Positions 12,714 through 29,761 of a DNA stretch of 38,031 nt are shown one piece after another; within the stretch, counting starts at the first letter, position 1; each line of letters starts with the position of its first letter. The stretch covers positions 1 to 38,031 of the forward strand of contig JAJRXC010000011.1 of the NCBI GenBank assembly GCA_024276495.1, written 5' to 3'. The notes under the pieces are model-generated. The model did not search any database and was not told the DNA's origin. It saw only the letters and a program-made list of their open reading frames with translations. A program made the position numbers and the translations under genes. Source of the stretch: Actinomycetes bacterium. Lineage in GTDB: Bacteria; Actinomycetota; Acidimicrobiia; Acidimicrobiales; Aldehydirespiratoraceae.

Positions 12714-13571
12714 ATGCGCCTGACCACGATCCGTTACGAACACGGCACTCGCGCCGCCCGAGTCGAAGGCGACCGCCTGGTGCTGCTCGACGCCGTCGAT
12801 GTCGGCGCGGTGTTGCGGGGCGCCACCGACGCCCGCAGCGACGGCGAGGAGGTCGCCGCGAGCGATGTCGAACGCGCGCCCCTCGTCGTTCGACCCGACA
12901 AGATCGTGTGCGTCGGCGTGAACTATCGCGATCACATCGCCGAGATGGGCCGCGAGCCACCAACCGCGCCGACCTACTTCGCCAAGTACCGGCGGGCCCT
13001 GATCGGCGCCCGCGACGACATCTCGCTTCCTCCCGTCGACGTGTCGACCCATGTCGACTGGGAAGCCGAGCTCGCGGTGGTCATCGGGTCGGAGCTGCGG
13101 TACGGCTCCGCCTCGGAGGCGATGGCGGCTATCGCCGGGTTCACCGTTCTCAACGACGTCTCCGTGCGCGATTACCAGCGCCGCACGACCCAGTTCCTCG
13201 CCGGCAAGACCTTCGAGGGCATGACCCCGCTCGGACCCGACCTGGTCACCACCGACGAGGTCGGCGACGGATCGGGGCTCGACATCTCCGCGGAGGTCGA
13301 CGGTGTGATCAAGCAATCGAGCAACACCTCCGAGCTCGTGTTCGGCGCGGTCGACATCGTGGCGGACCTCAGCCGGATCATCACGCTCGAACCCGGCGAT
13401 GTCATCGCGACCGGCACCCCGGGCGGCGTCGGCGCCGCCCGGACCCCGCCGGAATGGATGAGAGAGGGCACGGTCCTGCGAACGACGATCGCCCGACTCG
13501 GCGAATGCCGCAACGTCTGCGTTGCCGAAGAACGCAGACCCGACGGCCGGCGTGACAGGATGAAGGGATGA
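12714..13571 (+). CDS. Fumarylacetoacetate hydrolase family protein
   Basis: 285-aa enzyme of the FAH superfamily, which cleaves C-C bonds or decarboxylates/hydrates 2-oxo acids in aromatic and related catabolism. Seen: VRPDKIVCVGVNYRDHIAEMG (substrate-binding start of the FAH fold), divalent-metal ligands E117 and E119 in VDWEAELAVVIG and D148 in LNDVSVRDYQ, GKTFEGMTPLGPDLV, and the closing LEPGDVIATGTPGGVG. The N-terminal 60 residues form the small beta domain. The ATG is supported by the TAGGGT hexamer 6 nt upstream. The stop overlaps the next ATG (ATGA, 13568-13571), tying it to the AhpD-like selenoprotein candidate. The exact substrate is unknown. Confidence 0.88.
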   Translation: MRLTTIRYEHGTRAARVEGDRLVLLDAVDVGAVLRGATDARSDGEEVAASDVERAPLVVRPDKIVCVGVNYRDHIAEMGREPPTAPTYFAKYRRALIGARDDISLPPVDVSTHVDWEAELAVVIGSELRYGSASEAMAAIAGFTVLNDVSVRDYQRRTTQFLAGKTFEGMTPLGPDLVTTDEVGDGSGLDISAEVDGVIKQSSNTSELVFGAVDIVADLSRIITLEPGDVIATGTPGGVGAARTPPEWMREGTVLRTTIARLGECRNVCVAEERRPDGRRDRMKG

Positions 13572-14668
13572 AATCGATGGGCTTGTTCAGTCGCAAGAAG
13601 CGGGAAGTGACCGACGACCCCAGCATCGAGGGATTCCCCACCGTCGACCTGATCGACCTCACCGACGGCGCCGCCGACATCCACGGCGACGACGTTGCCG
13701 CCACGATCTCCCCCATCGACGAGTTCGATCAGATGGTCGACCGCGAATGGGAACGCCTCGCGAGCCCGGGCACGTGGTGGACCGGCGGCGAACGCGTCGC
13801 GATCGCCCACGATGCCCGTCTCGCCGCCGAGGGGCGAGCCGCGACCGGCGTGCTGCCGGCCCCACTCGAAGAAGCGACGCGACGAATCGCGGTGCACGCG
13901 GCGAGCATTCGCGGAACCGATGTCGCCCGCTGGGAGCTCGAAGGACTCGATCCCTTCTCCTTCATCGAGCTCACCGGGATCGTCAGCCGGCTCGCGGCCA
14001 TCGACGTCACCAGCTTCGGCCTCGGCCGAGAACTTCGAGAACTGCCCGAGCCCGAGCTCTTCGGAGACCCGAGCCGCACCAAACCCGAGGGTGCCGTGAT
14101 CACCACCGGTTGGGCGCCGACGATCGGGCCGGCCGGCGCGCCCAGCGCCCTCACCGCTGTACCACCCGAGGCCGAGGCGATGTTCGATCTGCACGGCGTG
14201 CTCTACGCGACCATCGACGAGATGTTCGACCTGCAGCTCGTTCGGGACGGGCTCACCCGCCCCCAGATCGAGCTCGTCGCCGCCCGCACCTCGAGCCTCA
14301 ACGAGTGTTTCTATTGACTGCTCGGACACACCTCGATGCTCCGGGCGAGCATCGCCACCTTCGATTCCGAGGTCATTCCGGAGCCGATCGTCACCGGTGT
14401 CGGTGACACCGGGGTCGAGCACGGCGCCGAGATCGTCGCGTTCGTCGATGCCGTCGTGCTCCGCGACGACGACGAGTACCCCGAGGCCCGCGCCGCCCTC
14501 GAAGCCCTGATCGGCCGCGAGGCCACCGACCGGTCGGCGATGGTGGCGGGCAACTTCTCGATGATGAACCGGGCCCTCGACGCGGTCGGCGCGCCGGTCG
14601 ATCGAAGCCAGGATGCCCTGGCTGCCGAGATGGGGTTGTCGATCCCCTCCCATCTCCGGTCGCGCTAG
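13568..14668 (+). CDS. AhpD/carboxymuconolactone decarboxylase-like protein, candidate selenoprotein (Sec250)
   Basis: Annotated here as one 366-residue protein read through an in-frame TGA at 14315-14317. The part before the TGA (249 aa) and the part after (116 aa) are in the same frame. The junction reads NECFY-TGA-LLGHTSMLRA, which reproduces the AhpD-family redox motif C-x-x-C-x-x-x-H with C247, codon 250 = TGA and H254; family members normally have Cys at 250. Preceding helices (VLYATIDEMFDL, QIELVAARTSSLNECFY) are typical of the CMD fold. The N-terminal 150 residues (SPGTWWTGGERVAIAHDARLA and beyond) match the first half of two-part CMD-like proteins, but without their cysteines. A SECIS-like hairpin follows the TGA. 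Alternative: a nonsense mutation. Selenocysteine would make it a thiol-peroxidase/reductase. Coupled to the FAH-family gene. Confidence 0.72.
14315..14353 (+). promoter_or_regulatory. TGA (Sec) codon and bSECIS-like hairpin
   Basis: TGA at 14315-14317 is followed by a perfect hairpin: GATGCTC (14335-14341), loop CGGGC (14342-14346), GAGCATC (14347-14353). The apical loop begins 25 nt after the TGA and has G at its second position. These values fall within the published bacterial SECIS description (loop about 16-37 nt from UGA, short loop with a G among its first two bases, stem of at least 4 bp). Confidence 0.6.
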
Positions 14669-15742
14669 TCAGATCACCGCGGCGAGCGTGGCGAGAAAGC
14701 GGTCGTTCTCGCGTTCGGTACCGATCGTGACCCGGATCCCCTCGCCGGAGAACGGGCGAACGACCACCCCTCGCTGCTCGAGCGCGAGCGCGACCTCGTC
14801 GGTGTGGTCACCGATCGGCAACCACACGAAGTTCGCGTGGGGATCGGGAAACGTGTGGCCTGCGGCGCGCAACGCGGCCACCACCCGTTCACGTTCGTTC
14901 CGAAGGAACCGAACCCGATCGCGGATCTCCTCGTCGGCGTCGATCGCCGCCCGCGCCGCGGCCTGGGCGATGGCGTTGACCGCGAACGGCACCATCGTCT
15001 TGTCGACGGCTGCGACCACCCGTGGATCACCGATCAGGTAGCCGACCCGGAGACCGGCGAGGCCGTGGGCCTTGGAGAAGGTGCGCAACACCACCGCGTT
15101 GTCGTGGTTCGGCAGCACGTCGCGCACCGGATCTCCGACCGCGTCATCGTTGAACTCCCGATACGCCTCGTCGATCGCGACGATGGTCGTGGAGTCGATT
15201 CGGTCCATGAAGCCGTTGAGGTCGTCGCTGGTCAGCACCGTGCCGGTCGGGTTGTTCGGCGACGCCAAGAAGACCAGTTTCGTCTTCTGGGTGACCACCG
15301 CCACGACCGCGTCGAGGTCGAACGCGCCGTCGACGAGCGGCACCGTCACGGAAACGCCGCCGACGAGTTGCGTGTAGACGGGATAGACCTCGAACGAGCG
15401 CCACGGGTAGACGACCTCGTCTCCGGCATCGACATAGGTGAGGCAGAGTTGTTGGAGCAGGCCGGCCGATCCCGGGCCGACCGTCACCGCGGCCGGGTCC
15501 ACCCGGAGATGTCCGGCCAGCGCCGCACGTAGCTCGCTCGCCCGATGGTCGGCGTAGCGGTTGATGCCGGTCGCGGCCTCGGCGATCGCCGCCGCGACCG
15601 CGGGGACCGGCGGCCACGGCGTCTCGTTGGAGGCGAGCTTGATCGCGTCGGCGATCCCGTGTTCCCGCTCGGCCTGCGCGGCGTCCTTGCCGGGCCGGTA
15701 GGCCGGCAGCCCGTCGATCGTGGCCCGTGGTCGTCCGGTCAT
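14669..15742 (-). CDS. hisC: Histidinol-phosphate/aromatic aminotransferase
   Basis: 357-aa class I/II PLP aminotransferase of the HisC family, transferring the amino group between glutamate and imidazole-acetol phosphate or aromatic 2-oxo acids. Motifs: KLASNETPWPP near the N terminus (SNENP-like), NRYADHRASELRAALA, NNPTGTVLT, VAIDEAYREF with D191 contacting PLP nitrogen, and Schiff-base K224 in RTFSKAHGLAGLRVGY. The C terminus has PHANFVWLP and VVVRPFSGEGIRVTIG. It lies outside any his operon and its ATG overlaps the sulfatase stop (ATGA, 15739-15742), so an aromatic-aminotransferase role is as likely as histidine synthesis. It converges with the AhpD-like gene with no intervening base. Confidence 0.87.
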   Translation of the reverse strand: MTGRPRATIDGLPAYRPGKDAAQAEREHGIADAIKLASNETPWPPVPAVAAAIAEAATGINRYADHRASELRAALAGHLRVDPAAVTVGPGSAGLLQQLCLTYVDAGDEVVYPWRSFEVYPVYTQLVGGVSVTVPLVDGAFDLDAVVAVVTQKTKLVFLASPNNPTGTVLTSDDLNGFMDRIDSTTIVAIDEAYREFNDDAVGDPVRDVLPNHDNAVVLRTFSKAHGLAGLRVGYLIGDPRVVAAVDKTMVPFAVNAIAQAAARAAIDADEEIRDRVRFLRNERERVVAALRAAGHTFPDPHANFVWLPIGDHTDEVALALEQRGVVVRPFSGEGIRVTIGTERENDRFLATLAAVI

Positions 15743-19656: not shown

Positions 19657-19715
19657 CCCTGGTTCTATGACATCTGCGGACCGTATGACGGTCCGCAGAT
19701 GTCATAGAACCAGGG
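19657..19715. repeat. Perfect 59-bp palindrome, copy A
   Basis: 28-bp perfectly paired arms (19657-19684 and 19688-19715) around the 3-nt loop ATG. It lies in the divergent gap between the acyl-CoA ligase (-) and the sulfatase-like remnant (+), so it is not placed as a simple terminator for either. A near-identical palindrome is at 29700-29758; in flipped orientation the two agree at 52 of 59 positions and six of the seven differences form three compensated base pairs. Confidence 0.9.
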
Positions 19716-29696: not shown

Positions 29697-29761
29697 GATC
29701 CCTGGTTTTCTGACATCTCCGGACCGTCATGCGGTCCGGAGATGTCAGAAAACCAGGGATC
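29697..29761. terminator. 30-bp perfect palindrome, copy B, between convergent genes
   Basis: Arms of 30 bp (29697-29726 and 29732-29761) pair perfectly around the loop TCATG. It sits between convergent genes ending at 29695 and 29765, so it is well placed as a bidirectional terminator, although no T-run follows. It shares its core with the palindrome at 19657-19715 in flipped orientation. Confidence 0.75.

Follow-up and report, generated by a model that had tools for sequence, protein, structure and literature searches.

An AhpD-related protein with a predicted fused-dimer fold and a probable selenocysteine at its redox site

A gene in the 38,031-nucleotide stretch of actinomycete DNA analysed here (the window) carries an in-frame TGA that is almost certainly decoded as selenocysteine, to judge from the conserved decoding machinery, the codon found in homologues and a conserved hairpin. 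The preliminary description had read the TGA at 14315 as selenocysteine residue 250 (Sec250), and these lines of evidence support it. Taken as a whole, the observations are very probably best explained by a selenoprotein of the NCBIfam family NF041238 with a SelB/SECIS-dependent Sec250, folded as a fused AhpD pseudo-dimer and likely engaged in hydroperoxide reduction. By its profile match, the window gene is a member of an already described selenoprotein family. New here are a CFYUL group beside CFYUT, selection on the SECIS at the codon level, a natural loss of selenocysteine, and a high-confidence model in which the protein is a fused AhpD pseudo-dimer and matches Sestrin2 over both halves. 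The features are collected in Table 1.

Table 1. Coordinates of the selenoprotein gene, its predicted elements and its neighbours in the window.
Feature	Position	Strand	Evidence or remark
Fumarylacetoacetate-hydrolase-family (FAH) gene, upstream	12714..13571	+	4-base overlap with the selenoprotein ATG start
Putative AhpD-related selenoprotein gene, 366 residues with Sec250	13568..14668	+	NF041238 229 bits, alignment, model
Predicted active-site stretch E235, C247, Y249, U250, H254; AhpD/CMD helix-turn-helix	14270..14329	+	Roles from PMC4674687 (in part)
In-frame TGA, probable selenocysteine 250, second redox position of AhpD CxxC	14315..14317	+	Homologue codons
Candidate bacterial SECIS hairpin within the coding region, 8-bp stem, loop CGGGC 14342-14346	14334..14354	+	Codon bias, covariation, bSECIS model
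Class I/II (HisC-like) aminotransferase gene, convergent, downstream	14669..15742	-	Neighbourhood comparison

Reading frame

The frame opens with the ATG at 13568, encodes 249 amino acids up to the TGA (13568-14317) and continues to a TAG at 14666-14668. As the preliminary description had stated, the TGA at 14315-14317 is the sole interruption between the two same-frame segments. Translation across it gives C247-F-Y-U250-L-L-G-H254 in the context NECFY-U-LLGHTSMLRA, and the proposed AhpD/CMD motif with TGA at its second redox position stands as written. GC content at the three codon positions is 0.695/0.502/0.843 before the TGA and 0.724/0.474/0.897 after it, which is coding-like on both sides, again in line with what had been claimed. 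A gene caller stopping at 14315 would truncate the protein within its active site. Eight of the nine other Pfam-supported ORFs checked in the window end in TGA and one in TAA, which agrees with the earlier view of TGA as a normal stop codon here; because eight of these nine use it as a stop, a reassignment of UGA was rejected.

Family membership and codon 250 in relatives

The protein matches NF041238 at 229 bits (cut-off 175) over positions 4-346 of the 357 in the profile, and the CFYU motif of the family is present as NECFYU, followed by L and not T. In the genome search it scored 212.8, against 417.3 for the best member in the order sample. NF041238 is named AhpD_rel_CFYUT, "alkylhydroperoxidase-related (seleno)protein", and a table in the review PMC13188914 (in part) equates it with "hypothetical protein 1" of PMC1088965, which comprised four CXXU sequences from the Sargasso Sea in 2005; SECIS-like stem-loops were stated for all new selenoproteins of that study (PMC1088965, in part). 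A full-text literature search for NF041238 or CFYUT returned only this review. On a midpoint-rooted tree, 13 sequences form a CFYU-T/A clade (support 0.995), and the remaining 25, the window protein and the sequence from L042 among them, make up a CFYU-L/M group whose own support is low (0.211). Both groups occur in several genomes, for example in G020, where loci L021 and L056 have T and L052 has L.

We aligned 38 sequences, namely 37 over-cut-off matches spanning the codon (window included) and one below the cut-off (from G053); the other below-cut-off rows, which are distant AhpD/CMD proteins, were left out, and the matches in G014 and G015 were not added, being N-terminal fragments of genes that the count includes. 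Codon 250 is TGA in 37 of the 38, across several genera and families, and GGG in one (locus L042 of genome G004). A further 37 loci read at this codon gave TGA in 34 and TGC in three (L118, L119 and L121). In an order-wide sample of 397 genomes, 83 had a family match over the cut-off, and, of the matches listed, those extending across the codon contain TGA except in G646, G510 and G572 (the last below the cut-off), which are the three TGC cases. A Marinomonas locus (L068) has TGT. The preliminary description had proposed to see whether homologues carry Cys or TGA at this position, and apart from the single GGG the aligned relatives and these four Cys-codon loci do so; unrelated stops or frameshifts downstream, which would have spoken against the reading, were looked for in relatives and not seen. 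Since TGA accounts for 37 of the 38 and 34 of the 37, with three TGC, selenocysteine is, as read from the codons, the rule within the order and Cys the rare alternative. Sampling across the phylum yielded few members, with matches at E up to 1e-30 in four of 396 genomes, the window's genome included. A contig scan with the pattern N[ED]CFYC.. found four loci, all with TGC or TGT and one of them (L070) a short match only; as the pattern has Cys at the selenocysteine position, it could find only Cys-codon forms or short chance matches.

Some further matches were noted in passing. In the order-wide sample, the family match in G636 is split (1-237 and 238-356), perhaps by a frameshift, and a match on G670:C18 is listed with two TGA codons, with TGA at the aligned one. 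In many genomes there are shorter AhpD/CMD-like matches, of about 200 amino acids and below the cut-off, for which one in-frame TGA is listed; some of these genomes (G019, G024, G032) are without the long family. One such below-cut-off locus, L049 (G033:C4:19120-19521), has TGA at the aligned codon in the context CHYULVHH; the below-cut-off loci L045-L048 have TGC or TGT there.

Selenocysteine machinery

The window's genome (4.33 Mb in 111 contigs, 97.42% complete, 4.02% contaminated) was searched for selA, selB, selD and tRNA-Sec, as the preliminary description had proposed, and all four are present; a genome lacking them would have counted against selenocysteine. The tRNA-Sec scores over the Rfam cut-off and was confirmed by ARAGORN, SelB has the SelB-wing_3 winged-helix domain, and selA is adjacent to selB. 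SelD has an in-frame TGA of its own (L018 1531-1533, GAGUGCK), after which a GC-rich inverted repeat can be seen by eye.

Among 61 genomes (the window's own and 60 relatives), 24 have the family over the cut-off, 47 have selA over the cut-off and 45 have tRNA-Sec. Either selA over the cut-off or tRNA-Sec is found in 24/24 of the family genomes vs 26/37 of the others (Fisher p 0.002), and selA alone in 23/24 vs 24/37 (Fisher p 0.005), both tests being uncorrected for kinship.

The SECIS hairpin

Positions 14334-14341 pair with 14347-14354 downstream of the TGA, with the first loop base being the 25th after the TGA (spacing 24 nt) and G at loop position 2. The loop CGGGC, its second-position G and the distance are as the preliminary description gave them, while the stem is 8 bp rather than 7 bp. 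The published bSECIS model allows a loop of 3-9 nt, a stem of 4-16 bp, G in the first two loop positions, a spacing of 16-37 nt and a minimum free energy of at most -7.5. The window hairpin, with its loop of 5 nt, stem of 8 bp, spacing of 24 nt and -11.3 kcal/mol when folded alone, lies within these limits. The third loop base is G in the window (GG, 4/37 sequences) vs U in 33/37, and the model permits both. To estimate chance, TGA trinucleotides were counted on the two strands of the window, leaving out those less than 70 bases from its ends; of these 779, six (the one at 14315 among them) precede a comparable hairpin, with a perfect stem of at least 8 bp, a loop of 3-9 nt that has G among its first two bases, and a spacing of 16-37 nt. 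An Rfam scan of the window at gathering scores gave no SECIS or other match, and our verdict on the SECIS is independent of Rfam.

Scoring against the bSECIS model, which had been suggested earlier, thus held for the model constraints and for conservation at the RNA level; the single-sequence folding energy is its weak spot. The minimum-energy fold of the 45 nt after the window TGA (-12.1) differs from the SECIS hairpin and pairs bases directly after the UGA; these should lie under the ribosome while it pauses at that codon. Compared with synonymous shuffles, this 45-nt fold is not significantly stable (z -0.92, p 0.195), and over 37 sequences the mean z is -1.32, with p < 0.05 in 10/37. We therefore regard single-sequence folding energy as weak evidence for a SECIS.

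We also ranked synonymous codon bias over the 80 columns with a conserved, synonymously variable residue in 37 sequences, treated as independent; the sequence from L042 was left out here and from the covariation and RNAalifold analyses. The five most constrained columns are R259 (CGT 23/27), S261 (AGC 32/37), A260 (GCG 29/29), Y249 (TAT 33/35) and L258 (CTC 37/37), four of which lie within the hairpin and the other, Y249, directly before the UGA; L244 and V133, next in rank, are both outside hairpin and motif. In the same 37 sequences, 91.6% of hairpin cells are paired, three of the eight stem pairs never vary, and two have both bases changed, one pair in 7 sequences and the other in 14. Covariation scores 0.250 vs 0.146 in shuffles (sd 0.014), with 0/500 shuffles as high and slid versions of the hairpin reaching at most 0.166. 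Two of five covariation measures were no higher than in shuffles (pairs changed on both sides, 2 vs 2.1; further pair types, 8 vs 7.3). RNAalifold recovers the same helix unprompted, with seven pairs. The hairpin is, on these patterns of codon use and covariation, selected as RNA. This family of high-GC relatives is well suited to SECIS work: its synonymous codons reveal selection acting on the RNA.

The exceptional sequence at L042 (G004:C10:74871-75764) comes from the same genus and sits inside the selenocysteine clade on the tree. It has LCRCAHG where the window protein has LNECFYU, its hairpin codons now read CGC GCC GGC, and its genome retains selA and tRNA-Sec. By comparison with its relatives, selenocysteine is lost in this sequence without a direct change to Cys and the SECIS hairpin is decayed, which makes it a natural control for SECIS selection. 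By eye, the hairpin is gone in the Cys forms L118 and L121 and still present in L119. We also observed that the Cys-codon relative at L119 / L067 keeps the SECIS-like codons CTC CGG GCG AGC, as if its change from selenocysteine to Cys were recent. Around the motif, L119 and L121, both of the window's order, look identical to L067 and L069, which come from records of Acidimicrobiia and Acidimicrobiales, so the window is probably from the actinobacterial class Acidimicrobiia.

Predicted fold and chemistry

The Pfam CMD match of the window protein is just over the gathering score (23.6 bits; gathering score 23), and a CMD match at E up to 10 occurs in all 38 aligned sequences. E235, C247 and H254 are invariant among the 38, and U250 is found in 37. 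In the putative alkylhydroperoxidase YP_296737.1, redox and relay roles fall to Glu74, Cys86, Tyr88, Cys89 and His93; E235, C247, Y249, U250 and H254 are spaced alike, the E-12-C-3-U-4-H spacing being identical to that of Glu74/Cys86/Cys89/His93 (PMC4674687, in part).

An AlphaFold2 model built from the alignment is mostly helical, with a mean pLDDT of 91.0 and a pTM of 0.88. With Foldseek, AhpD-type structures come out best, at E of 0.001 or higher in every case, and a profile search of PDB sequences found the AhpD 6k40 (9.3e-11) and peroxidase-related proteins. When the Foldseek candidates were realigned with VIA-align, Sestrin2 came first (Z 16.3, 234 residues, 3.4 A, 9% identity, both halves), followed by 16 AhpD/CMD-type entries (Z 10.5-13.4), of which ten begin at or after model residue 178. 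The protein is thus predicted to be a fused AhpD pseudo-dimer, in which both halves have the fold, the N-terminal one lacks the Cys pair and the C-terminal one bears the active site. Within the N-terminal half, E134 never varies and D146, 12 positions further on, hardly does; these may be a worn copy of the active site without Cys. An old "hypothetical" selenoprotein family is hereby tied to a predicted fold, which makes its enzymology testable.

From the AhpD-type residue spacing, the fold and the Cys-bearing fused-dimer analogues, we infer a putative selenocysteine alkylhydroperoxide reductase. SelB with Sec-tRNA would bind the hairpin just after the UGA and so place selenocysteine at residue 250. 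Sec250 would then attack organic hydroperoxides and form a selenenic acid, which C247 would resolve to a selenenylsulfide, with E235 and H254 moving protons and a thiol reductant restoring the enzyme. By analogy with AhpD and Sestrin2 chemistry, an alkylhydroperoxide is the substrate that we favour, with some reserve.

Selenocysteine could also serve a different chemistry of the CMD fold, for instance thiol-disulfide transfer or a reductive dehalogenation like that of Bmp8, and we consider this possible though rather unlikely. With a Z of 12.9, the debrominase Bmp8 ranks among the closest single-domain folds, and the genomic surroundings also count in favour of such a chemistry. No AhpC or peroxiredoxin was found among the ten window proteins scanned, and the neighbours are the FAH and aminotransferase genes, which flank the L-group gene in 7/7 same-genus loci examined (that of L042 among them); the aminotransferase is also beside the gene in 5/14 other loci (L081, L082, L123-L125). 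This neighbourhood comparison covers L-group loci; gene lists based on longest ORFs were set aside as too noisy. The two neighbours suggest no particular substrate, and no peroxide either. Against other chemistries stands the fact that selenocysteine is typical of peroxide chemistry; moreover, the residues of the redox pair and proton relay described in PMC4674687 (in part) are invariant or nearly so here.

Two accounts dispense with selenocysteine, and we judge both very improbable. In one, translation really ends at the TGA and the functional protein has 249 residues, with the remaining sequence either unused or forming an ORF of its own; an ORF of 110 amino acids does begin at ATG 14336. 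Such a stop would cut the protein inside its active-site motif. Beyond it would lie three invariant residues (H254, L258, F330), two that are nearly so (S261, G316) and a large part of the C-terminal half in the AlphaFold2 model, whereas the Cys-codon relatives L118 and L119 read through without a stop. The other, a nonsense mutation in a pseudogene or a sequencing error for TGC or TGT, draws on the assembly sequence being the evidence and on Cys-codon relatives one base away from TGA, but is excluded as a general account by the recurrence of TGA across genera and families together with a conserved hairpin, and by the open, coding-like frame that follows. Decoding of this TGA as selenocysteine is about as sure as sequence allows.

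Elsewhere in the window, we observed two long near-perfect palindromes at 19657-19715 and 29698-29760, whose arms (TTCTATGACATCTGCGGACC and TTTTCTGACATCTCCGGACC) are related without being the same. Each arm is matched by an inverted copy of its own, so that changes are compensated in both arms. They are perhaps a repeated palindromic element or a strong bidirectional terminator.

Comparison with known systems

The window protein shares with NF041238 a score over the cut-off, the CxxU motif and a candidate SECIS after the UGA; it belongs to the CFYU-L/M group, whereas the model is named for the CFYU-T/A group. The AhpD-like 1 and AhpD-like 2 selenoproteins of the Global Ocean survey also have CxxU at an AhpD/CMD-type site but differ in being filed under COG2128 and pfam02627 (PMC2398784). 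AhpD-like (COG2128), CMD-domain (Pfam02627) and hypothetical protein 1 are separate rows in PMC1088965 (in part).

The match to human Sestrin2 is one of fold, with model residues 46-343 aligned to 66-476 of the chain. In Sestrin2 the active half is N-terminal and only the first Cys is kept (PMC4674687, in part), and the window protein has, in the model, its CxxU helix-turn-helix at the place of the sestrins' hinge (PMC11429811, in part). Membership of the sestrins was ruled out by the definition in PMC11429811 (in part), as the C-terminal half keeps the CxxU helix-turn-helix (helices 231-244 and 248-263). The Pfam PA26 domain matched one of the 38 members (E 0.0057), and not the window protein. 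A literature search for sestrin, selenocysteine and AhpD together returned a single paper, PMC7066401, on p53. Conceivably, the protein follows the sestrin ground plan in a bacterial, selenium-bearing form, with a C-terminal selenocysteine peroxidase and a Cys-less N-terminal half that is ligand-sensing or regulatory. We consider this doubtful; it draws on the spacing of E134 and D146 in the N-terminal half, equal to that between Glu and the first Cys in the active one. If true, the link to sestrins would be one of architecture, possibly of descent.

Bacterial Cys-bearing fused dimers have themselves been discussed as sestrin analogues (PMC11429811, in part). The fused-dimer alkylhydroperoxidases of Corynebacterium ureicelerivorans and Comamonas aquatica have two AhpD-like domains with the redox pair in the C-terminal one only, which is the arrangement modelled here; these enzymes have two cysteines, whereas in the window protein the second is a probable selenocysteine (PMC11429811, in part).
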